A stretch of DNA of 38,282 nt from an uncultured Elusimicrobiales bacterium (GTDB lineage Bacteria; Elusimicrobiota; Elusimicrobia; Elusimicrobiales; Elusimicrobiaceae), in NCBI GenBank assembly GCA_944325225.1, contig CALUZQ010000015.1, positions 1-38,282 on the forward strand, written 5' to 3'. Within the stretch, counting starts at the first letter, position 1, and each line of letters begins with the position of its first letter. The notes under the pieces are model-generated. The model did not search any database, was not told where the DNA came from, and worked only from the letters and a program-made list of their open reading frames with translations. Shown here piece by piece: positions 23,280 to 33,802 of this stretch. Made by a program: the position numbers and the translations under genes.

Positions 23280-23305
23280 TCTTTGTGTGTCAAAAGATAC
23301 AAAGA
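23280..23305. promoter_or_regulatory. Inverted repeat, candidate operator of the RND efflux operon
   Basis: TCTTTGT (23280-23286) and ACAAAGA (23299-23305) are perfect 7-bp arms with 12 nt between them. They lie between the divergent cysK promoter and the efflux operon, just upstream of a likely -10 (TATACAAT, 23311-23318). Its size and symmetry suit a dimeric repressor of the TetR or MarR kind, but no regulator gene is adjacent. Confidence 0.45.
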
Positions 23306-23369
23306 AATTTTATACAATGAAACAACGCGTTCTTACTCGCGCTATTGTTATTACAGAGGGGATTTGCCC

Positions 23370-24860
23370 ATGAATAAAAAGTTTTTTGTACCGGCGGTTC
23401 TAACCGCCTCGTTGCTGTTGGCTCCGTTTTTTTGCGGTTGCAAAAAAGCGGAACAAGCCGGCACTTTGCCTATGGCTGCAGTCAATGCGATTACAGTCAT
23501 TCAGAAAGATTTGCCCTGGGACATTGAATACCCGGCCCAGGTGGCAGGGTCGCTGGATATTCAAATTCGCGCCCAGGTAGGCGGTATTTTGCAAGCCCGT
23601 TTATATAACGAAGGGGAATATGTTACCGCCGGGACGCAGCTGTTTCAAATAGATGATACGGAATATAAAGTGGCGTTGGAAAAAGCCGAAGGAGCCCTGG
23701 CTCAGGCCCAAGCTGAAGAACGGCGTACCAAACGCACTTATTCGCGCATGAAACGACTCCGTGCCGATAATGCCGTCAGCCAGCAGGATTACGACAATGC
23801 GCTTTCCGCCTATGAAACGGCCCAGGCCAATGTGAAAGTAGCCAAAGCCGGCGTAAGCGATGCGGAAATTAATTTGGGCTATACCAAAGTTACCGCGCCC
23901 ATTTCCGGGATTGCGGGCAAAGAAGCCCAGTCGGTAGGCAGTTTGATTTCTCCGGCGGGGGAATCCGGCTTGCTGACCACGATGGTACAAATTAACCCGT
24001 TGTATGTGAACTTTTCTATGCCCAGCCGTCAGTTTGAAAAATTGTCCGCCGGGTTTATTTCCGGGCAGATTTCCATCGGCACCGAAGAACAGCAAGACAA
24101 ATTAGCGGCCGACCAATACCGCCGCACTGCCGCGGCCGATGCGCCTATTTATGTGGAAGTATTGCTTAACAACGGCAAAATTTATCCGGAAAAAGGAAAG
24201 ATTGTTTTCTTTGACAGTACCGAAAATACCCAAACTTCCAGCTTGGCCATGAAAGCCGAATTTGCCAACCCCAAAAATTCCCGCGCCCTTATGCCGGGGC
24301 AGTTTGTGCGGGTGCGCTTAGTGGGGGCTACTTACAAGAATGCTATTTTGATTCCTTCCTCAGCCGTGCTTAACACCGCCCAAGGTATGATGGCGTATGT
24401 GATTGACGCCAATGATACCATTGTGGCCCGGCCCATTCAGGCCCAGCTGCAAGATGATATGTATATCGTAACCGACGGATTAAAAGCGGGGGAACGCATC
24501 GTCAGCGAAGGGCTGATTAAAGTGCGCCCCGGGCAGCAGGTGCAAGTGCAGCTGAAAGATTTTACTCAGCCCCAGCCCACAGCATCCGAACAGCCCCTTT
24601 CGCAGGACGGCCGCAGTGTAGCTGTGCTGGAAGAAGAAATAGAAGCGTCCGAAGCGCCGGATACCCAGGCCTTGCCGCAGGCGGACAATTCCGCCGCTGC
24701 AGCGGCTCCGACCGCGGAAACGGACGGTGCCCAGCCGGCCGCCCAAACGGAACCTTCCGCCCCGGCGGCTCAATCCGCCCAAGCGGAACCGGCCGCCCAA
24801 GCGGCAGAATCTGCGCCGGCTCCGGCGGCTGCTCAGCCCGCGAATGCGGCCGAGAAATAA
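23370..24860 (+). CDS. RND efflux periplasmic adaptor (AcrA/MexA family) with low-complexity C-terminal tail
   Basis: 496 residues. A lipoprotein-type signal (LLLAPFFCGCKK, likely C24) is followed by the membrane-fusion layout: lipoyl half-motif IRAQVGGILQARLYNEGEYVTAG, a coiled-coil hairpin (about 100-165), second lipoyl half TKVTAPISGIAGKEAQSVGSLI, then beta-barrel and membrane-proximal domains ending near KVRPGQQVQVQLKDF. The last ~95 residues are almost only Ala, Pro, Gln, Glu and Ser, unusual for the family. It links the inner-membrane pump to the outer-membrane channel. The ATG at 23370 is preceded by AGAGGGG; an in-frame ATG at 23283 falls in the promoter region and is rejected. First gene of a three-gene operon. 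Confidence 0.92.
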   Translation: MNKKFFVPAVLTASLLLAPFFCGCKKAEQAGTLPMAAVNAITVIQKDLPWDIEYPAQVAGSLDIQIRAQVGGILQARLYNEGEYVTAGTQLFQIDDTEYKVALEKAEGALAQAQAEERRTKRTYSRMKRLRADNAVSQQDYDNALSAYETAQANVKVAKAGVSDAEINLGYTKVTAPISGIAGKEAQSVGSLISPAGESGLLTTMVQINPLYVNFSMPSRQFEKLSAGFISGQISIGTEEQQDKLAADQYRRTAAADAPIYVEVLLNNGKIYPEKGKIVFFDSTENTQTSSLAMKAEFANPKNSRALMPGQFVRVRLVGATYKNAILIPSSAVLNTAQGMMAYVIDANDTIVARPIQAQLQDDMYIVTDGLKAGERIVSEGLIKVRPGQQVQVQLKDFTQPQPTASEQPLSQDGRSVAVLEEEIEASEAPDTQALPQADNSAAAAAPTAETDGAQPAAQTEPSAPAAQSAQAEPAAQAAESAPAPAAAQPANAAEK

Positions 24861-24869
24861 GGAGCGGCT

Positions 24870-27800
24870 ATGTTTTCTAAATTTTTTATTAACCGGCCGA
24901 TTTTTTCTACGGTTATTTCGCTGCTTATTTCGCTGGCGGGGATTGTGTCTATCACCATGCTGCCCATTGAGCAGTACCCGGATTTGACCCCGCCTACGAT
25001 TGAGGTGTCGGCTTCCTATCCGGGGGCCAGCCCGGAAGTGATTGCCAATACGGTGGCCGCCCCGATTGAACAGCAGGTAAACGGGGTGGAAGATATGCTG
25101 TATATGAATTCCACTTCGTCCTCCAACGGGGATATGTCGCTTACGGTTTCGTTTAAAGTCGGCACGGACCCGGACCAGGCCATGATTAATGTCAACAACC
25201 GGGTGCAGGGCGCTACCGCTACTTTGCCCGAAGATGTGCGCCGCTACGGGGTGGAAGTAAACAAAAAATCGTCGGCCATTTTACAGTTGATTGCTTTGTA
25301 TTCGCCCAACGGCCATTCGGATACGACCACCATCGGCAACTATGCGCTTTTGAACATTGTGGACGATTTGAAACGCATTGAAGGCGTGGGGGACGCGCAG
25401 GTAATGTCCGCCAACGATTATGCGATTCGTATTTGGATTAAGCCCGATGTGCTTTCCCAGCGCGGGTTATCCGTCAGCGATGTAGTGGCCGCCGTACAGG
25501 CGCAAAACGCCCAGCGCGCCGCCGGCAAAATCGGTCAGCCGCCGCTGCCGGTAAAAGTGGATCGTATGTATTCCATTATTGCGCCGGGCCGGTTAACGGA
25601 TCCCAAAGAATTTGAAGAAATTATCCTGCGCGCCAATCCGGACGGCACCTCCCTGCGGTTAAAAGATGTGGCCCAGGTGGAATTAGGCAGTCAAACTTAT
25701 GAATTTAACGGCAGTTTTAACGGAAAACCCGCCGTGCCGATAGGCGTGTATCTTTCGCCGGGCGCCAATGCCGTAGCCACGGCTAAAGCGGTGGACGCAC
25801 ATATGCAGGAAATCGCCCAAAACTTCCCGCCGGATTTGGATATTGACTACAAAGTCGCTTACGATACCACCTTGTTCGTAACTGCTTCTATTAAAGAAGT
25901 AATCCACACGCTGATTGAAGCGATGATTTTGGTGTTCTTGGTGGTTTATCTGTTCCTGAAAGACTGGCGCGCAACGCTGATTCCTTGTCTGGCGGTGCCG
26001 GTTTCCATTGTGGGTGCGTTTGCGGGTATGCTGCTGTTGGGCTTTTCCATCAATACGCTGACGCTGTTCGGGCTGGTGCTGGCGATTGGTATCGTGGTGG
26101 ACGATGCCATCGTGGTCATTGAAAATGTGGAACGCATTATGCACGAGGAGAATCTGCCCGTTAAAGAGGCCACCGTCAAAGCCATGGACGAAGTATCCGG
26201 CCCGGTGGTAGCCATTGTGCTGGTGCTGTGTTCCGTATTCGTGCCGGTAGCGTTTATGGGCGGGCTGACGGGGGTTATGTACCAACAGTTCGCCATTACG
26301 ATTGCCGTATCGGTAATTATTTCCGGGTTGGTGGCCTTAACGCTTACGCCTGCTTTGTGCGCGCTGTTGCTTAAAAAACAGGAACACCCCACCCGCGGAT
26401 TCTTCTATCAGTTTGATCTGTTTTTTGAAAAATTAACCGGCAAATACAGCACGGCTGTAGCGTTTTTTATTCGCCGGCTGATGGTATCGGGGGTGCTTAT
26501 CGGGCTGGTCTTTTTGGCGGCTTTGGGATTGTTTAAAATCGTGCCCGGCAGTTTGCTGCCGGACGAGGACCAAGGCGTTATTATGGTGGCGGCCCAGCTG
26601 GACCCGTCGGCTTCGCTTTCCAATAGCGATACTGTAGCCAAACAGCTGGAAGAATTAATCCAGGCCCAGCCGGCCGTTTCGCAGGTGCTTACCTTTTCCG
26701 GGTTTGATTTGCTGAGCAGTACGCAGAAAGGGAATGCGGTTTCTTCGTTTGTGATGTTGAAACCCTGGGAAGACCGCAAATCCAAAGACCTTTCTTCCAG
26801 CTCTCTTGTCGCCCGGCTGTATGCCTTGGCACAGAGCAAAATTCCCGCGGCCGTGGTAATGCCGTTTAATCCGCCGCCGATTATGGGTATGAGTACTACC
26901 GGCGGCTTGGAAGGATATATCCAAAACCGCAGTTCCGGCGGCAGCGAAGCGCTGGAAGCCCAAACGCAAAAATTTCTTGAAGCCGCCAAAAAGCGGCCGG
27001 AGCTTTCCAGCGTAAGCACTACTTTCTCGGCGGCGGTTCCCCAGTATAAGTTAGATGTGGACGAAATTAAAGCGCAGGCCATGGGGGTTTCGCTGTCGGA
27101 ACTCTATACCACGCTGCAGGGTACTTTTGGTACTTATTATGTCAACGACTTTACCTACTCCGGCCGCAGTTTCAAGGTAATGCTGCAGGCGGACGGACAA
27201 TACCGCGCCAAGCCCGAGCAGATTTCCGGCATTTATGTTCGTTCCAATTCCGGGGCGATGGTGCCGCTTTCCACGCTGGTAACGCTGACCCCGGTGTTGG
27301 GGCCCGATGTGGTAGAACGGTTTAATGTATTCCCGGCCGCTAAAATTATGGCGAACCCGGCCCCGGGATACAGCTCCGGCGACGCTATCCGCGCCGTGGA
27401 GGAAACCGCCAAGGAAGTATTGGATTCCGGTTTTACGCTGGCTTGGACGGGTACCACTTATCAGGAAAAACTGTCCGGCAATTCCTCGGCCATGGCGCTC
27501 TTGTTGGGTATGCTGGTCGTGTTCCTTATTTTAGCGGCCCAGTATGAAAAATGGAGCTTGCCGGTAGCCGTATTGCTGGCGGTTCCGTTTGCTATCTTTG
27601 GGGCGTTGGCCGGCACTTGGGCGCGCGGATTATCCAACGATATTTACTTCCAGATTGCGTTGGTGGCGCTGGTAGGTTTGGCGGCCAAAAACGCCATTTT
27701 GATTGTGGAGTTTGCGGTAATGCTCAAGCAGCAGGGAATGGAAACCGCCCAGGCCGCCGTGGAAGCGGCCAAGCTGCGTTTCCGCCCGATTGTGATGACT

Positions 27801-28022
27801 TCGCTGGCCTTTATCTTGGGCTGTGTGCCGCTGGCCATCAGTTCCGGTGCGGGTGCGGCCAGCCGCCATGCCATTGGTACGGCGGTGGTCTTTGGTATGT
27901 TAGCCGCCACGCTGATTGCGCCGTTATTTGTACCGTTATTCTTCTGGTTATTAAGCGGCGGCCGAAAAAAGAAAGAAAATCAGCCGTCTGAGAAAATTGA
28001 AACGAAAGAGGAGCATGTATGA
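24870..28022 (+). CDS. RND efflux transporter, inner-membrane pump (AcrB/MexB, HAE1 family)
   Basis: 1050 residues, the normal HAE1 length. Twelve membrane segments in two halves with large periplasmic loops. Seen: MFSKFFINRPIFSTVISLLI at the N-terminus, LPIEQYPDLTPPTIEVSA, the TM4 proton-relay stretch GIVVDDAIVVIENVERIM with paired Asp, PVAFMGGLTGVMYQQFAIT, PDEDQGVIMV, and FQIALVALVGLAAKNAILIVEF in the second half. It exports hydrophobic compounds by proton antiport. It starts 9 nt after the adaptor stop with a GGAG ribosome binding site and overlaps the outer-membrane factor by 4 nt (ATGA). Confidence 0.96.
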   Translation: MFSKFFINRPIFSTVISLLISLAGIVSITMLPIEQYPDLTPPTIEVSASYPGASPEVIANTVAAPIEQQVNGVEDMLYMNSTSSSNGDMSLTVSFKVGTDPDQAMINVNNRVQGATATLPEDVRRYGVEVNKKSSAILQLIALYSPNGHSDTTTIGNYALLNIVDDLKRIEGVGDAQVMSANDYAIRIWIKPDVLSQRGLSVSDVVAAVQAQNAQRAAGKIGQPPLPVKVDRMYSIIAPGRLTDPKEFEEIILRANPDGTSLRLKDVAQVELGSQTYEFNGSFNGKPAVPIGVYLSPGANAVATAKAVDAHMQEIAQNFPPDLDIDYKVAYDTTLFVTASIKEVIHTLIEAMILVFLVVYLFLKDWRATLIPCLAVPVSIVGAFAGMLLLGFSINTLTLFGLVLAIGIVVDDAIVVIENVERIMHEENLPVKEATVKAMDEVSGPVVAIVLVLCSVFVPVAFMGGLTGVMYQQFAITIAVSVIISGLVALTLTPALCALLLKKQEHPTRGFFYQFDLFFEKLTGKYSTAVAFFIRRLMVSGVLIGLVFLAALGLFKIVPGSLLPDEDQGVIMVAAQLDPSASLSNSDTVAKQLEELIQAQPAVSQVLTFSGFDLLSSTQKGNAVSSFVMLKPWEDRKSKDLSSSSLVARLYALAQSKIPAAVVMPFNPPPIMGMSTTGGLEGYIQNRSSGGSEALEAQTQKFLEAAKKRPELSSVSTTFSAAVPQYKLDVDEIKAQAMGVSLSELYTTLQGTFGTYYVNDFTYSGRSFKVMLQADGQYRAKPEQISGIYVRSNSGAMVPLSTLVTLTPVLGPDVVERFNVFPAAKIMANPAPGYSSGDAIRAVEETAKEVLDSGFTLAWTGTTYQEKLSGNSSAMALLLGMLVVFLILAAQYEKWSLPVAVLLAVPFAIFGALAGTWARGLSNDIYFQIALVALVGLAAKNAILIVEFAVMLKQQGMETAQAAVEAAKLRFRPIVMTSLAFILGCVPLAISSGAGAASRHAIGTAVVFGMLAATLIAPLFVPLFFWLLSGGRKKKENQPSEKIETKEEHV

Positions 28023-29470
28023 AATTTAAATCTTTTGGGGCGGTGGCTGCGGCGTCCGTTTTATTGGCGGGCTGTATGCTGGGCCCCAACTATAAACAGC
28101 CGGAATTGGATTTGCCGCAGGGCGAAGCCGCCGATAATTTTAGCGTGTTTACCCAGGCAAAATGGTGGGAAGTGTTCCAGGACCCGGTGTTAGACCAGCT
28201 GGAAGCCGATGCGTTGGAACACAATAAAGATTTACAGGCCGCGATTGCGCGGGTGGATCAGGCGCGCGCCCAGGTAGGAATTGCCACCGCCGACCAGCTG
28301 CCCAGTTTATCGGCGGCGGCCGAGTCGGGCCGGGCCGGCAGTCAAGCCGGATCCGGGCAGACGCAAAGCACAGCCAATGTGTCGGTTTCCTACGAATTGG
28401 ATTTATGGGGTAAATACCGCCGCTTGAGTGAAGCCGCGCGGGCCCAACTGCTTTCCAGCCAGGCCGCACGGGATACCATTCAGCTGACGCTAACGGCTGA
28501 TGTAGCGAAAAATTATTTTTCGCTTCGCATGCTGGACGCTCAGCTGGAAATTGCCCAACGCACCCTGGAAGCGCGCAAAGAAAATGTACGCATCTATACC
28601 AGCCGCTATAAAAACGGTTATTGTACGGAAGTGGATTTAAAACGCGTGGAAGCCAATATGGCCAGCGTGCAGGCGCAGGAACAACAGCTGCGGCTGAAAA
28701 TTGCACAGACCGAAACCGCTCTTTCGGTGTTAGTGGGCAAATCGCCGCGGGAAATTGTGGAAAACCAAACGCCGCGCGGCAAATCGCTTTCGGAAATTAC
28801 GCTCATTCCCGATGTGCCCGAAGGATTGCCTTCCGACTTGCTGGCCCGGCGGCCGGATGTCCGCTCGGCGGAGGGGCAGCTGATTGCCGCCAACGCCAAT
28901 ATCGGTGCGGCCCGGGCGGCGTATTTCCCCAGCATTCCGCTGACGGCTTCTGCCGGCTATGCCAGCGGCGCGCTTAATAATTTGTTTACCGGATCTTCCG
29001 GCGTATGGGCCGCCGGCGGGCAGTTGCTGGCGCCTATTTTTGAAGGCGGAAAGATTCGTGCCGAAAACGAAAAAGCCGAAGCCCAATACCGCGAGATGTT
29101 GGCTTCGTATGAAAAAACGGTGCAAGGTGCGTTTAAGGAATCGCTGGACGCGATTGCCGCCAACCGCATTAACCGCGAAATCTTTGATTCCTACAAACAG
29201 CAAACCGAAGCGATGCAGCGCAGCTATGAGTTGACGAAAAAGCAAGAGGACGCCGGGCTCATTGGCGTAACGGATTTGTTAGATGTGGAAGAGAATTTGC
29301 TTTCCGCCGAAATGAATCTGGCGACCGCCCGGAATGATGAATTGGCGGCGATTGTCAATTTATCCAAAGCGTTGGGCGGCGGCTGGAATGTGCAGGAAGG
29401 ATTCGGCCCGTACGAAGAATTAGTCAAGACCCAGCAAGCCGAACTGAAACAAGAGCCGTCCGTAAAATAA
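28019..29470 (+). CDS. RND outer-membrane channel lipoprotein (OprM/NodT family)
   Basis: 483 residues. Lipoprotein signal with LLAGC (C19), followed by the family start MLGPNYKQPELDLP and WWEVFQDPVLDQLEADALEHNKDLQAAIARVDQARAQ. Two repeated TolC-like halves are recognised by the long helices and by VSYELDLWGKYRRLSEAARAQL, LPSDLLARRPDVRSAEGQLIAANANIGAARAAYFPSIPL (first motif only up to the Pro-Ser) and GVTDLLDVEENLLSAEMNLATARND. It forms the trimeric outer-membrane duct of the pump encoded upstream. An intrinsic terminator 17 nt downstream ends the operon. Confidence 0.95.
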   Translation: MKFKSFGAVAAASVLLAGCMLGPNYKQPELDLPQGEAADNFSVFTQAKWWEVFQDPVLDQLEADALEHNKDLQAAIARVDQARAQVGIATADQLPSLSAAAESGRAGSQAGSGQTQSTANVSVSYELDLWGKYRRLSEAARAQLLSSQAARDTIQLTLTADVAKNYFSLRMLDAQLEIAQRTLEARKENVRIYTSRYKNGYCTEVDLKRVEANMASVQAQEQQLRLKIAQTETALSVLVGKSPREIVENQTPRGKSLSEITLIPDVPEGLPSDLLARRPDVRSAEGQLIAANANIGAARAAYFPSIPLTASAGYASGALNNLFTGSSGVWAAGGQLLAPIFEGGKIRAENEKAEAQYREMLASYEKTVQGAFKESLDAIAANRINREIFDSYKQQTEAMQRSYELTKKQEDAGLIGVTDLLDVEENLLSAEMNLATARNDELAAIVNLSKALGGGWNVQEGFGPYEELVKTQQAELKQEPSVK

Positions 29471-29742: not shown

Positions 29743-29748
29743 TTGCGT

Positions 29749-30303
29749 ATGCACAAAAATTATCAAAAAATATTCCCCGGCCATAAAAACGCCGGATTTA
29801 CGCTTATAGAGCTGCTAGTGGTTGTTTTAATTATAGGCATACTGGCGGCAGTTGCTTTGCCGCAATATGAAAAAGCGGTTGCAAAAAGCCGGATAGCTGA
29901 AGCTCAAAATTTATTGAATGCTATTATGAAAGCCGAAGCGGTATATATGCTGGCAAACCCTGGAATGGTACCCTATACTTTTTCCGAATTAGATATTGAC
30001 CTTCCGTGTGAGTTAAAAGAAGAAAATGAAGATTACTATGCTACTTATGTTTGTAATAATTGGGAGGTAACACTCAATAAAAGGGATGGATTGATGCATC
30101 AAATAAAGATTGCAGCGGCGGATAATAGATCCGGGTTGGAGGGATTTTCGTTACTCTACGACGGTGCAGACAAAAAGCGGAAATGCCGTTTTTTGTCTGA
30201 TTCTGCTTTTCAAAAAAGTGTATGCCAAAGCTTAGGATATACGAAATGGGTTGGTCTTACCTCCACAGGGGGGAAATCCTATAAGGAGTATATAGAACCA
30301 TAA
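29749..30303 (+). CDS. Type IV pilin-like protein 3
   Basis: 184 residues. Leader MHKNYQKIFPGHKNAG, cleavage before F17, helix [18 protein letters not shown] with Glu at +5, then ALPQYEKAVAKSRIAEAQNLLNAIMKAEAVYMLAN. The head domain has four cysteines (LPCELK, TYVCNN, KCRF, VCQSL) and ends KSYKEYIEP. It differs from pilins 1 and 2 after about residue 50, apart from a 'LDI(D/E)(L/I)P' segment shared by all three. The head is AT-richer than the neighbouring genes. The start is the ATG, without ribosome binding site. No terminator is evident downstream. It may be a minor pilin or a variant major subunit. Confidence 0.9.
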   Translation: MHKNYQKIFPGHKNAGFTLIELLVVVLIIGILAAVALPQYEKAVAKSRIAEAQNLLNAIMKAEAVYMLANPGMVPYTFSELDIDLPCELKEENEDYYATYVCNNWEVTLNKRDGLMHQIKIAAADNRSGLEGFSLLYDGADKKRKCRFLSDSAFQKSVCQSLGYTKWVGLTSTGGKSYKEYIEP

Positions 30304-30482: not shown

Positions 30483-31877
30483 ATGAAAATACCGGCGCTG
30501 TGCCCGTTGGACGGCCGCTATAGCGGCAGACTGGGCGCGCTCAGAAGTGTGATGAGCGAAGCCGCCTTTGCCGCATGCCGCGTGCGGGTGGAATGCACCT
30601 GGTTTAAGTTGCTTGCCGATTTAAAACTACCCCGTTTTACCCCTCTGTCTGCACAAGAAAGCCGCTTGCTGGCTTGCGCCAGTACGCTTACCGAGCAAGA
30701 TTTGGACCTAATTCGTGCTTTGGAATTTGACGGCTACCAACAAATCCCGCCTACCAAACACGATGTAAAAGCCCTGGAGTATTTCCTGCGGCTGAAATTT
30801 AAAAATACCTCGCTCAAAGACCGGCTGGACTGGCTTCATTTCGCGCTGACCAGCGAAGATGTAAACAGCGCCGCCTATGCACTGTTGCTGGCAGACGGTT
30901 TGGAAAAAGTGCTGCTGCCCGCCCTGGAAAAATTGCACAAAGAACTGGTCAAACTGGCCCGCAAAGAGGCCCGCTCCGTTCTGTTGGCGCGTACCCACGG
31001 GCAACCGGCTGTTCCCACCACTTTTGGCAAAGAAATGCGGGTATTCTGCGAGCGGCTGAACCGGCAGTTAAAATTTTTAAAACAACAAAAAATTTCATTT
31101 AAATTCGGCGGCGCCGTAGGTAATTTTAATGCCCACTATGCGGCTTTCCCCCGAGTGAATTGGCCCCGCGCGGCGCAAAAAATGGCGGCGGAACTTAACC
31201 GCGGACGCAAAATAAAACTCTTTCTGTCGCCGGTTTCCACCCAGGTAGATCCGCGCGACAGCTATGCCGAGCTTTTTGATAATTTGCGGCGAATCCATAT
31301 CATTTTGCTGGATTTGTGCCGGGATTTATGGCACTATATTTCCGCTGGACTGGTGCGTCAGAAAACAGCGGCGGGCGAAGTGGGTTCTTCCACCATGCCG
31401 CAAAAAGTAAATCCCATTGATTTTGAAAACGCCGAAGGCAATTTGCAGTTGGCGGACGCTTTGCTGGATTTGTTTTCGCGCAAGTTGCCAGTGTCCCGTT
31501 TGCAGCGGGATTTATCGGATTCTACCGTGCTTCGCAATATGCCCGTGGCGTTTGGGTATGCGCTGACGGCTTACCAATCCCTGGAAAAAGGCCTGGCCAA
31601 AATTGCGTTTGACCGCCCGGCCGCGCGGGCTGAACTCCAGCAACATCCGGAAGTACTGGCGGAAGCCATTCAAACGATTTTGCGCGCGGCGGGATATCCC
31701 CGCGCCTATGAAACCTTGCGGGATTTTACACGCGGGCGGGAAATAACCGCCGCGTTATTAAACGAATTTATATCCGGGCTGTCCCTGGACGGGCCAACCC
31801 GTGCCAAACTGGCGGCGCTTCGCCCGGAAACTTACCTGGGCCGCGCGCGTGAACTGGCGGAGGAAAAGTATGATTGA
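30483..31877 (+). CDS. purB: Adenylosuccinate lyase
   Basis: 464 residues, the long E. coli-like PurB type. It begins MKIPALCPLDGRYSGRLGAL and has LTSEDVNSAAYAL, ARTHGQPAVPTTFGKEM (catalytic His) and the fumarase-superfamily signature GEVGSSTMPQKVNPIDFENA (about 298-317), followed by SRLQRDLSDSTVLRN. It acts twice in purine synthesis, cleaving SAICAR and adenylosuccinate. Its last 8 nt overlap purA, so the two adenylate-branch enzymes are translationally coupled. The start lacks a ribosome binding site and appears leaderless. Confidence 0.95.
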   Translation: MKIPALCPLDGRYSGRLGALRSVMSEAAFAACRVRVECTWFKLLADLKLPRFTPLSAQESRLLACASTLTEQDLDLIRALEFDGYQQIPPTKHDVKALEYFLRLKFKNTSLKDRLDWLHFALTSEDVNSAAYALLLADGLEKVLLPALEKLHKELVKLARKEARSVLLARTHGQPAVPTTFGKEMRVFCERLNRQLKFLKQQKISFKFGGAVGNFNAHYAAFPRVNWPRAAQKMAAELNRGRKIKLFLSPVSTQVDPRDSYAELFDNLRRIHIILLDLCRDLWHYISAGLVRQKTAAGEVGSSTMPQKVNPIDFENAEGNLQLADALLDLFSRKLPVSRLQRDLSDSTVLRNMPVAFGYALTAYQSLEKGLAKIAFDRPAARAELQQHPEVLAEAIQTILRAAGYPRAYETLRDFTRGREITAALLNEFISGLSLDGPTRAKLAALRPETYLGRARELAEEKYD

Positions 31878-32886
31878 TATTGTCTGCGGCGGTCAAGCCG
31901 GCGATGAAGGAAAAGGTAAAATTTCGGCCTATTTGTCTTACAAAGGCAACTACGATTATTGCGTGCGCGTGGGCGGCCCCAATGCCGGCCATACCGTGGT
32001 GAAAGACGGTAAATCCTACACGCTTAAAAACATTCCGTCCGGTTTTTTAAACCCCAAAACTAAACTGGTGCTGGGGGCCGGCGCTTATACCAAAACGGAA
32101 TGGCTGTTGGACGAAGTAAATTTTACGGGTACGCGCGACCGGCTGATTATTGACCCGTATGCCGTTTTGATTACCGACGAACAAACCGCCGCCGAGCGGG
32201 GTGCTTCGCATTTTATGGAGCATATTGGCAGCGTCGGCACGGGGTTGGGGCAGGCCGTGCGCCAGCGCATTGAACGGCGGGATATCAAATTTGCCAAAGA
32301 TGAACCGCTGTTAAAAGATTTTATCCAAGATGTACCGGAACTGTTAAACGGCTGTTTGGATAAAGGCGGCCAAATTTTGCTGGAAGGCACGCAAGGGATT
32401 AAATTGTCGCTTTTGCACGGAGAATATCCGTTTGTTACTTCGCGCGATACGACGGCCAGCACTTTTTTGGGCGAAGCCGGCCTGGGGCCTAAATCGGTGC
32501 GGGATGTGTATGTGGTTTTTAAACCCTATATTACCCGCGTGGGACCCGGCCCGCTGGAAAAGGAACTGACGGACGAAAAAGAACTGGAAATTTATCACAC
32601 CAAAGGGCACGAAATCGGCAGCGTCAGCAAACGGCTGCGCCGTATCGGCGCGTTTGAAACCCGTTCCGCCGCGCGGGCGATTATGATTAACAACTGCACT
32701 AAAATCGCCCTGACGCATATGGATATGTTCCCCGGGAATGACCGCGTGAAAACGCAGGCGGATTTTACCCCCGAAGCCCAAGCGTTTCTGGAACAGCTTA
32801 AAGCCCTCTGTGCCCGCACCTATCCGCACCCGGAAATAGCGCTTATTTCCACCGGGCCGGATATGGAAGATACTTTAGTGCTCTAA
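31870..32886 (+). CDS. purA: Adenylosuccinate synthetase, compact archaeal-type
   Basis: 338 residues, about 90 fewer than usual bacterial PurA, matching the short archaeal form. Seen: GGQAGDEGKGK at residues 7-17 (GTP-binding, with catalytic Asp), GGPNAGHTVV (catalytic His), LEGTQGIKLSLLHGEYPFVTSRDTTAS (first motif LEGTQG), TRVGPGPL, and RRIGAFETRSAARAIMINN. It joins IMP and Asp using GTP to make adenylosuccinate, the substrate of the overlapping purB. The start is the ATG with GGAGGAAAAGT upstream, inside purB; the longer in-frame ORF beginning at 31801 lies wholly in purB and is rejected. It ends in an intrinsic terminator. Confidence 0.92.
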   Translation: MIDIVCGGQAGDEGKGKISAYLSYKGNYDYCVRVGGPNAGHTVVKDGKSYTLKNIPSGFLNPKTKLVLGAGAYTKTEWLLDEVNFTGTRDRLIIDPYAVLITDEQTAAERGASHFMEHIGSVGTGLGQAVRQRIERRDIKFAKDEPLLKDFIQDVPELLNGCLDKGGQILLEGTQGIKLSLLHGEYPFVTSRDTTASTFLGEAGLGPKSVRDVYVVFKPYITRVGPGPLEKELTDEKELEIYHTKGHEIGSVSKRLRRIGAFETRSAARAIMINNCTKIALTHMDMFPGNDRVKTQADFTPEAQAFLEQLKALCARTYPHPEIALISTGPDMEDTLVL

Positions 32887-32898
32887 AGCAAAGCAACC

Positions 32899-32922
32899 AA
32901 AAGCGGCCCAAAGGCCGCTTTT
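32899..32922 (+). terminator. Intrinsic terminator of purB-purA
   Basis: AAAAGCGGCC (32899-32908), CAAA loop, GGCCGCTTTT (32913-32922), followed by GATTTTG. Confidence 0.88.
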
Positions 32923-32930
32923 GATTTTGT

Positions 32931-32962: not shown

Positions 32963-33802
32963 TTAATTGATTTTGCTGTGAGGGGGGACATCTTGGGTAA
33001 TCCACTTATTCGCCCCAATGACACTGGCTTTTCCGATGGTAATGTTGCCTAATACGGTGGTTTCGGCGTAAATAATCACATCATCTTCTATGTTGGGGTG
33101 CCGTTTGATGCCTTTAACGGGATTGCCGTTTTTGTCCAGCGGGAAGCTTTTTGCTCCCAGCGTAACGCCCTGGTAGAGTTTTACATTGGCCCCGATGACG
33201 CAGGTTTCTCCAATTACAACGCCGGTCCCGTGGTCAATAAAAAAACCGGGGCCGATAGACGCGCCGGGGTGAATGTCTATACCGGTTAAATTATGGGCGT
33301 ATTCGGTTACAATGCGGGGAATTAAGCGAATGCCTCGTTCGTGCAGAAAATGAGCCATGCGCTGTAAGGTAACGGCGGTTACGCCCGGGTAGCACAGCAA
33401 GGGTTCCACCGGGCTGATGGCGGCCGGGTCGCCCTCGTAAGCGGCGTTTACATCGCTGATTACCAGCCGCTGGATTTCCGGCAGGGCGAGGATAAAATCG
33501 TTCGTTACTTGCCGGGCTTGCGCTTCGCAGCGGGAGCAGTCGGCTTTCTCCGGGCACAAAAAACACAAAGAACGCATAATTTGTTCTTCCAGCCGCTCCG
33601 CCAGCCCTTCCAGCGTAAACGATGGGGTTTCCCGCCCGGATTCCAGCGGATATTGGTACAAAAAATCTTTCAAGGCGCAAAAAATAGCAACTGTCTTTTT
33701 GGCAGAGGGAATAAATTTCGCTTTTTGAAAAAACTTTTTATCAAAAGTATTTTTCAATTCTTCCGCGGTTTTGGCAAAGGAGTCCGTCACGGTGCGCCTC
33801 AC
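32963..33802 (-). CDS. cysE: Serine O-acetyltransferase with an internal four-cysteine cluster
   Basis: 279 residues. The C-terminal half is a left-handed beta-helix acyltransferase: YEGDPAAISPVEPLLCYPGVTA, ITGIDIHPGASIG-like repeats (GIDIHPGASIGPGFFIDHGTGVVIGET with catalytic Asp/His), LYQGVTLGAKSFPLD and VLGNITIGKASVIGANKWIT. It makes O-acetylserine for cysteine synthase. The ~140-residue helical N-terminal half contains C80-x2-C83-x5-C89-x2-C92, which could bind zinc or an Fe-S cluster. The start overlaps the lptB stop by 4 nt (ATGA), so a cysteine gene is the last member of an LPS-transport operon. Strong identification of the enzyme; the cysteine site is inference. Confidence 0.92.
   Translation of the reverse strand: MRRTVTDSFAKTAEELKNTFDKKFFQKAKFIPSAKKTVAIFCALKDFLYQYPLESGRETPSFTLEGLAERLEEQIMRSLCFLCPEKADCSRCEAQARQVTNDFILALPEIQRLVISDVNAAYEGDPAAISPVEPLLCYPGVTAVTLQRMAHFLHERGIRLIPRIVTEYAHNLTGIDIHPGASIGPGFFIDHGTGVVIGETCVIGANVKLYQGVTLGAKSFPLDKNGNPVKGIKRHPNIEDDVIIYAETTVLGNITIGKASVIGANKWITQDVPPHSKIN

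Follow-up and report, generated by a model that had tools for sequence, protein, structure and literature searches.

A purB–purA unit that probably displaced both ancestral genes in the order Elusimicrobiales

How did a bacterium of the order Elusimicrobiales come to carry a short, archaeal-type adenylosuccinate synthetase (PurA) directly behind an adenylosuccinate lyase (PurB) of the E. coli type? The two genes lie on the forward strand of a 38,282-nt stretch of DNA from an uncultured member of the order (the whole stretch is called the window here): purB, encoding 464 residues, at 30483-31877 and purA, encoding 338 residues, at 31870-32886 (ATG at 31870, TAA at 32886). They overlap by 8 nt (31870-31877), as the preliminary description had it. 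A GGAGG at 31859-31863, inside the end of purB and 6 nt before the purA ATG, is from its sequence the likely ribosome-binding site of purA. A terminator-like hairpin follows purA at 32898-32923 on the same strand; it is a consensus match only, and the region has 20 such sites where 8.6 would be expected. The next gene, which is serine acetyltransferase-like, lies on the reverse strand (32963-33802) and converges on the pair. The genome is 1.6 Mb in size and 92.9% complete, and no second PurA was found in it. Farther upstream, HlyD-like, AcrB-like and outer-membrane efflux genes stand in a row (23283-29470), apparently encoding a three-part efflux pump, and a pilin-like gene comes after them (29743-30303).

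The window purA is predicted, from its sequence and its modelled structure, to encode a short-form adenylosuccinate synthetase. The protein scores 221.7 bits against PF00709 (curated cut-off 27). The best NCBIfam model is that of the short PurA, NF003295, at 356.1 bits, which is below its cut-off of 368; this cut-off is passed by 39 of 150 relatives. The long-form model TIGR00184 gives 261.4 bits and the PurZ model NF038379 gives 161.3 bits, the latter below its cut-off of 300. In an alignment with E. coli PurA, the window protein shows two deletions of about 40-45 residues, at the same places as in the Pyrococcus PurA and a Rhizobium plasmid form. The Pyrococcus-like short form of the preliminary description is borne out by the structure as well: the two nearest solved structures to the predicted model (mean pLDDT 90.4) are those of Pyrococcus horikoshii PurA (NF003295/PRK04293; 2d7u and 5k7x), with 5k7x as the best match (Foldseek E 1.1e-35; Z 47.6, rmsd 1.5 over 328 residues). 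The residues that we take to be catalytic in E. coli PurA (Asp, His, Lys, Gln and two Arg) are all kept, with D12 and H41 corresponding to E. coli Asp13 and His41, and so is the Asp that presumably binds guanine. Thus, the window PurA shares its length, its two missing blocks, its fold and its catalytic residues with P. horikoshii PurA, but it is only 39% identical, misses the NF003295 cut-off, is found in bacteria and has a longer loop, HTKG, before the Arg loop. Another difference from the archaeal short form lies at residue 122, which is Val where E. coli has Thr129, presumably an IMP-binding position. Val occupies this position in 121 of 121 order-type PurA sequences read (some genomes twice), whereas Thr stands there in each of the 56 other PurA-type sequences whose motif could be recognised, PurZ included; 15 further sequences had no recognised motif.

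The window PurB is of the long E. coli-like form, in agreement with the preliminary description. It scores 548.9 bits against the E. coli-type model NF006764 (cut-off 446) and has an ASL_C domain (133.8 bits), which it shares with the PurB proteins of E. coli (2pts) and Legionella (3bhg) at about 43% identity. Both PurA and PurB thus belong to known enzyme families. In the PurB tree, the E. coli-type side, including the PurBs of the order, is split from the other PurBs of the phylum with 100/100 support. The order's PurBs differ from the E. coli-type proteins in forming their own clade, with 96/94 support and one long phage row inside. We took the position of this row, the PurB of Flavobacterium phage MaF61, as an artefact, its branch being very long (3.83); in a second tree, from which it and several other rows were left out, the clade has 97/93 support. 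Family f18 of the phylum has a third, intermediate kind of PurB beside a long purA (L148:8212-9579 and L194:979-2349; 214-222 bits to NF006764).

We then investigated which Elusimicrobiota have the short form, a check that the preliminary description had called for. A sample of 198 genomes of the phylum was scanned with PF00709 for PurA and with NF006764 for PurB; the family counts and the comparison of the two genome sets were made by eye from the tables. PurA was found in 170 genomes, and in 62 it is short, as recognised by a split, low-scoring PF00709 match. The NF006764 cut-off is passed in the same 62 genomes (and by 3 of 14 control genomes), and none of the 198 has a short purA or an E. 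coli-type purB alone. Of the 62, the window's genus accounts for 37, the rest of its family for 10 and family f2 for 14; the remaining one is a genome named G098. In other words, the set consists of 61 of the 69 sampled genomes of the order Elusimicrobiales plus a member of family f7 of the same class. The replacement is therefore no local event but a state common to most of the order. Outside these 62, the purA genes found in the phylum are long and the purB genes are of other types. Since the E. coli-type purB shares the distribution of the short purA and the other purBs of the phylum differ from it, purB seems as foreign as purA. In eight genomes of the order (G042, G044, G130, G134, G177, G080, G152 and G166), neither the short purA nor the E. 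coli-type purB was found, and G134 and G177 gave only weak matches to the PurB model; single absences are weak because most sampled genomes are drafts. A scan of the class with the window PurA gave matches in 190 of 235 genomes: G098 and 120 genomes of the order match with 56-100% identity, counting fragments, G177 matches weakly, and 68 others match only at E-values of 1e-15 to 1e-27, which among the matches listed are pieces of 34-39% identity. A scan of genome contigs for close relatives by exact short peptides gave 65 loci, and the titles that name a group name Elusimicrobiota.

The two genes also stay together. We collected 120 purB–purA loci with PurA identity above 50% and PurB identity above 38% (some genomes counted twice). 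Both genes are on the same strand in all of them, always in the order purB–purA and mostly tightly spaced (-11 to 519 nt; -8 in 42 loci and -4 in 49). For the window pair and the G098 pair, most of the neighbouring genes tested were not found next to the pair at other loci of the order, indicating that the pair remains together while its surroundings change.

The genome G098 shows such a pair outside the order. Its PurA branches beside the f2 genera g7 and g10 (100/100), and so does its PurB (100/99). Its rseP and rimP genes are 5,234 nt apart, which corresponds to a 5.2-kb insertion. In four genomes of the same genus (G084, G162, G150 and G335) the matched rseP/rimP ends are 127-156 nt apart and the insertion is absent. 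The insertion has a G+C content of 57.8%, against 65-66% outside. It carries purB, purA and a gene for an FAD-dependent protein on one strand; the opposite strand has genes for a deoxynucleoside kinase and for a small protein that matches no Pfam family. The stretch in front of rimP retains its promoter-like and hairpin sequence. A homologue of the FAD-dependent protein (31%) also comes after purA in the f2 genus g7. Among the genomes of the same genus, G084 and G162 keep a long PurA and another PurB, G335 and G337 have long-type PurA matches, and neither purA nor purB of any kind was found in G150. Contamination of the G098 bin is not supported by the flanking genes, one on each side: NusA is 76-80% identical to five genomes of the same genus against 51-57% to four f2 genomes, and Tsf is 68-75% identical to same-genus genomes against 43-45% to f2. 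Because both genes fall inside f2 and lie in one insertion whose site is empty in four genomes of the genus, a single transfer of both genes, out of the order's family f2 and into family f7, is the best reading of this case. The insertion was read from the assembly and may be a chimera. By carrying both genes in one insertion, G098 indicates that the pair can move as a unit. Together with the shared distribution in the sample, the common tree position and insertion of the G098 genes speak against a replacement of purA alone.

From these results, we think it probable that purB–purA is a foreign two-gene unit for making AMP, in which PurA would join IMP and aspartate using GTP and PurB would cleave the product to AMP and fumarate. 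This unit would have displaced the ancestral long purA and a purB of another type on the stem of the order; later, it would have been passed on jointly once more, from family f2 to the f7 member G098. In the window's genus it would serve in salvage. That both genes were displaced in one event on the order's stem is likewise an inference, and a point against it is that a joint move is seen only in G098. Alternatively, purA and purB might have been displaced independently on that stem, their shared distribution then meaning only that each displacement predates the order. If one long branch held both events, intermediate genomes need not have survived. Moreover, purB and purA adjoin in the same order also where purA is long and purB of other types (families f11 and f18; gaps of 16-553 nt), so that an in-place replacement of each gene is conceivable. 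We nevertheless regard independent displacement as rather unlikely, given that the pair moved as a unit into G098 and that its order and mostly tight spacing are kept in the 120 loci.

The ancestry of the short PurA was investigated in trees, the main one having 54 rows with 9 long and 18 short PurAs of the phylum. Each of these two sets forms a clade of its own, with 100/99 support for the long PurAs and 100/100 for the short ones. The short and long PurAs are split with 100/100 support in three trees, and a common clade of the short and long PurAs of the phylum is rejected (p-AU 3.7e-6). Thus, the short PurA is not a trimmed form of the phylum's own PurA. The replacement of a bacterial purA in the operon is supported to this extent, whereas a replacement beside a native purB is not.

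Improbable in our view is a reading in line with the preliminary description, that only purA was acquired, from a thermophilic archaeon, and placed beside a native bacterial purB. It is true that the best family model and the best structures for the window PurA are short forms of the archaeal kind and that it has its two deletions in common with Pyrococcus. However, its identity to the Pyrococcus protein is not above that to the plasmid forms of Rhizobium (38%) and Methylobacterium (39%), and it misses the NF003295 cut-off, which the Rhizobium form passes at 443 bits. The order's PurA is joined with Pyrococcus alone in none of three trees, and the adjoining purB is unlike the other types of the phylum and has the distribution of the short purA. 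Archaeal short PurAs were represented in the trees by one sequence (Pyrococcus, from the PDB). With this one sequence, placing the order's PurA beside Pyrococcus, Rhizobium and two viral forms gave a p-AU of 0.088, or 0.055 in a smaller set, so that an archaeal grouping was neither found nor rejected. A donor lineage with the same pair was not seen in the collections searched (the profile scans were within the phylum). Among the matches listed from a plasmid collection (60 of 94), the archaeal rows are two from Haladaptatus, and the PurA retrieved from one of them has 460 residues and is of the long form; outside the phylum, short forms were seen on rhizobial plasmids. Least probable of all is that the window PurA is an ordinary long bacterial PurA after secondary deletion of two blocks: a compact PurA does exist inside the long clade, on a viral contig, and an arrangement with the order's short forms and all long forms on one side gave p-AU values of 0.105 and, in the smaller set, 0.053, but that arrangement is also compatible with a basal position of the short clade relative to the long forms, and both the rejected union with the phylum's long forms and the short/long split speak against it.

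The phage enzymes PurZ and PurZ0, of 2-aminoadenine synthesis, belong to the short clade, and the order's PurA stands beside PurZ and related forms in the 54-row tree (97/94). In the smaller set without phage rows, it groups with three plasmid rows of the GSE type (97/93); a 29-row tree that included phage rows on long branches did not reproduce the PurZ grouping. In PurZ the catalytic Asp is replaced by Ser, which serves as the PurZ criterion in the passages of PMC12884076 consulted, whereas the window PurA keeps the Asp. To look for a viral origin, viral contigs were scanned: a PurA alignment gave 19 loci, with Ser at this position in 13 of the 18 listed; a scan with PurB gave 7 loci, and one with the window PurA alone gave no match. 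We may speculate that, among known cellular enzymes that retain the Asp, the order's PurA is the one closest to PurZ and that the compact purB–purA came from a mobile stock of AMP cassettes shared with phages, from which PurZ would derive as well; at present this is an unlikely proposition. PurA relatives with GSEGKG, in which Ser takes the place of the catalytic Asp just as it does in PurZ, were found on plasmids of Agrobacterium, Sinorhizobium and Methylobacterium (L174:4452-6053, L173:4992-6053 and L129:8001-9035), the Agrobacterium copy lying near genes for a UvrD helicase, a metallophosphoesterase and an integrase.

The viral contig mentioned above (L220:2043-5276), which is also among the 7 PurB loci, has an IMP dehydrogenase/GMP reductase-like gene (identified by eye), an E. 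coli-type purB and a compact purA of 332 codons, each overlapping the next (purB and purA by 4 nt). As the L220 PurA falls in the long clade, compaction can recur, and it probably happened more than once. On plasmid p3 of Rhizobium leguminosarum, a short archaeal-type PurA (the form scoring 443 bits against NF003295) is encoded next to purB, as in the window, in a cluster with genes for FolE, QueC, QueE, IMP dehydrogenase and nitrile hydratase (L128:4389-15709). Its PurA is the one 38% identical to the window protein, its purB is of another type, and its setting with QueC, QueE and FolE genes differs. We take this cluster to resemble a 7-deazapurine pathway, of a toyocamycin-like kind.

Divergent prokaryotic PurAs as such are already in print, since the passages of PMC12884076 consulted cover 298 PurA sequences of prokaryotes (160 phyla) and place 246 of them in the E. 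coli group; those passages name no Elusimicrobiota. In the literature searched, no paper pairs adenylosuccinate synthetase with Elusimicrobi-, nor Elusimicrobi- with purA and purB. Measured against that literature, three things are new: the probable displacement of both genes at the level of the order, the second transfer that we traced, and the divergent short PurA clade with its invariant Val. PurA and PurB are core enzymes, and most of the order would run on a swapped-in pair while other families of the phylum keep other versions. The second transfer into G098, with its clear empty site in relatives, is a clean natural example in which to ask why essential enzymes should be transferred as pairs. 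The divergent compact PurA also provides a comparison for archaeal PurA and phage PurZ.

What the pair does may differ among its carriers. In the window's genus, the 37 sampled genomes gave no PurC and the 7 tested for PurH gave none, and HPRT is present in 21 of 21 genomes checked. Because PurC was not found there, the pair most likely only turns salvaged IMP into AMP: HPRT would convert hypoxanthine to IMP and the pair would convert IMP to AMP, in salvage or interconversion only. In family f2, 13 of 17 sampled genomes keep PurC, so there PurB presumably has a role in de novo synthesis as well, and our reading as a salvage unit does not hold for this family. G098 (92% complete) has PurH, and PurC was not found in it. 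AICAR is a by-product of histidine synthesis, and, going by known pathways, the pair could also return AICAR to AMP in this genome. PurC was also not found in seven genomes of the order (G042, G044, G080, G130, G134, G152 and G166), among which G080 keeps PurH. In six of them, all except G134, purA and purB were not found either (89-97% complete), which suggests that this part of the purine route was lost. One genome, G034, has a second, shorter PurC-like match (C1:236235-236861) beside a normal one, and similar short matches occur in some genomes of other families.
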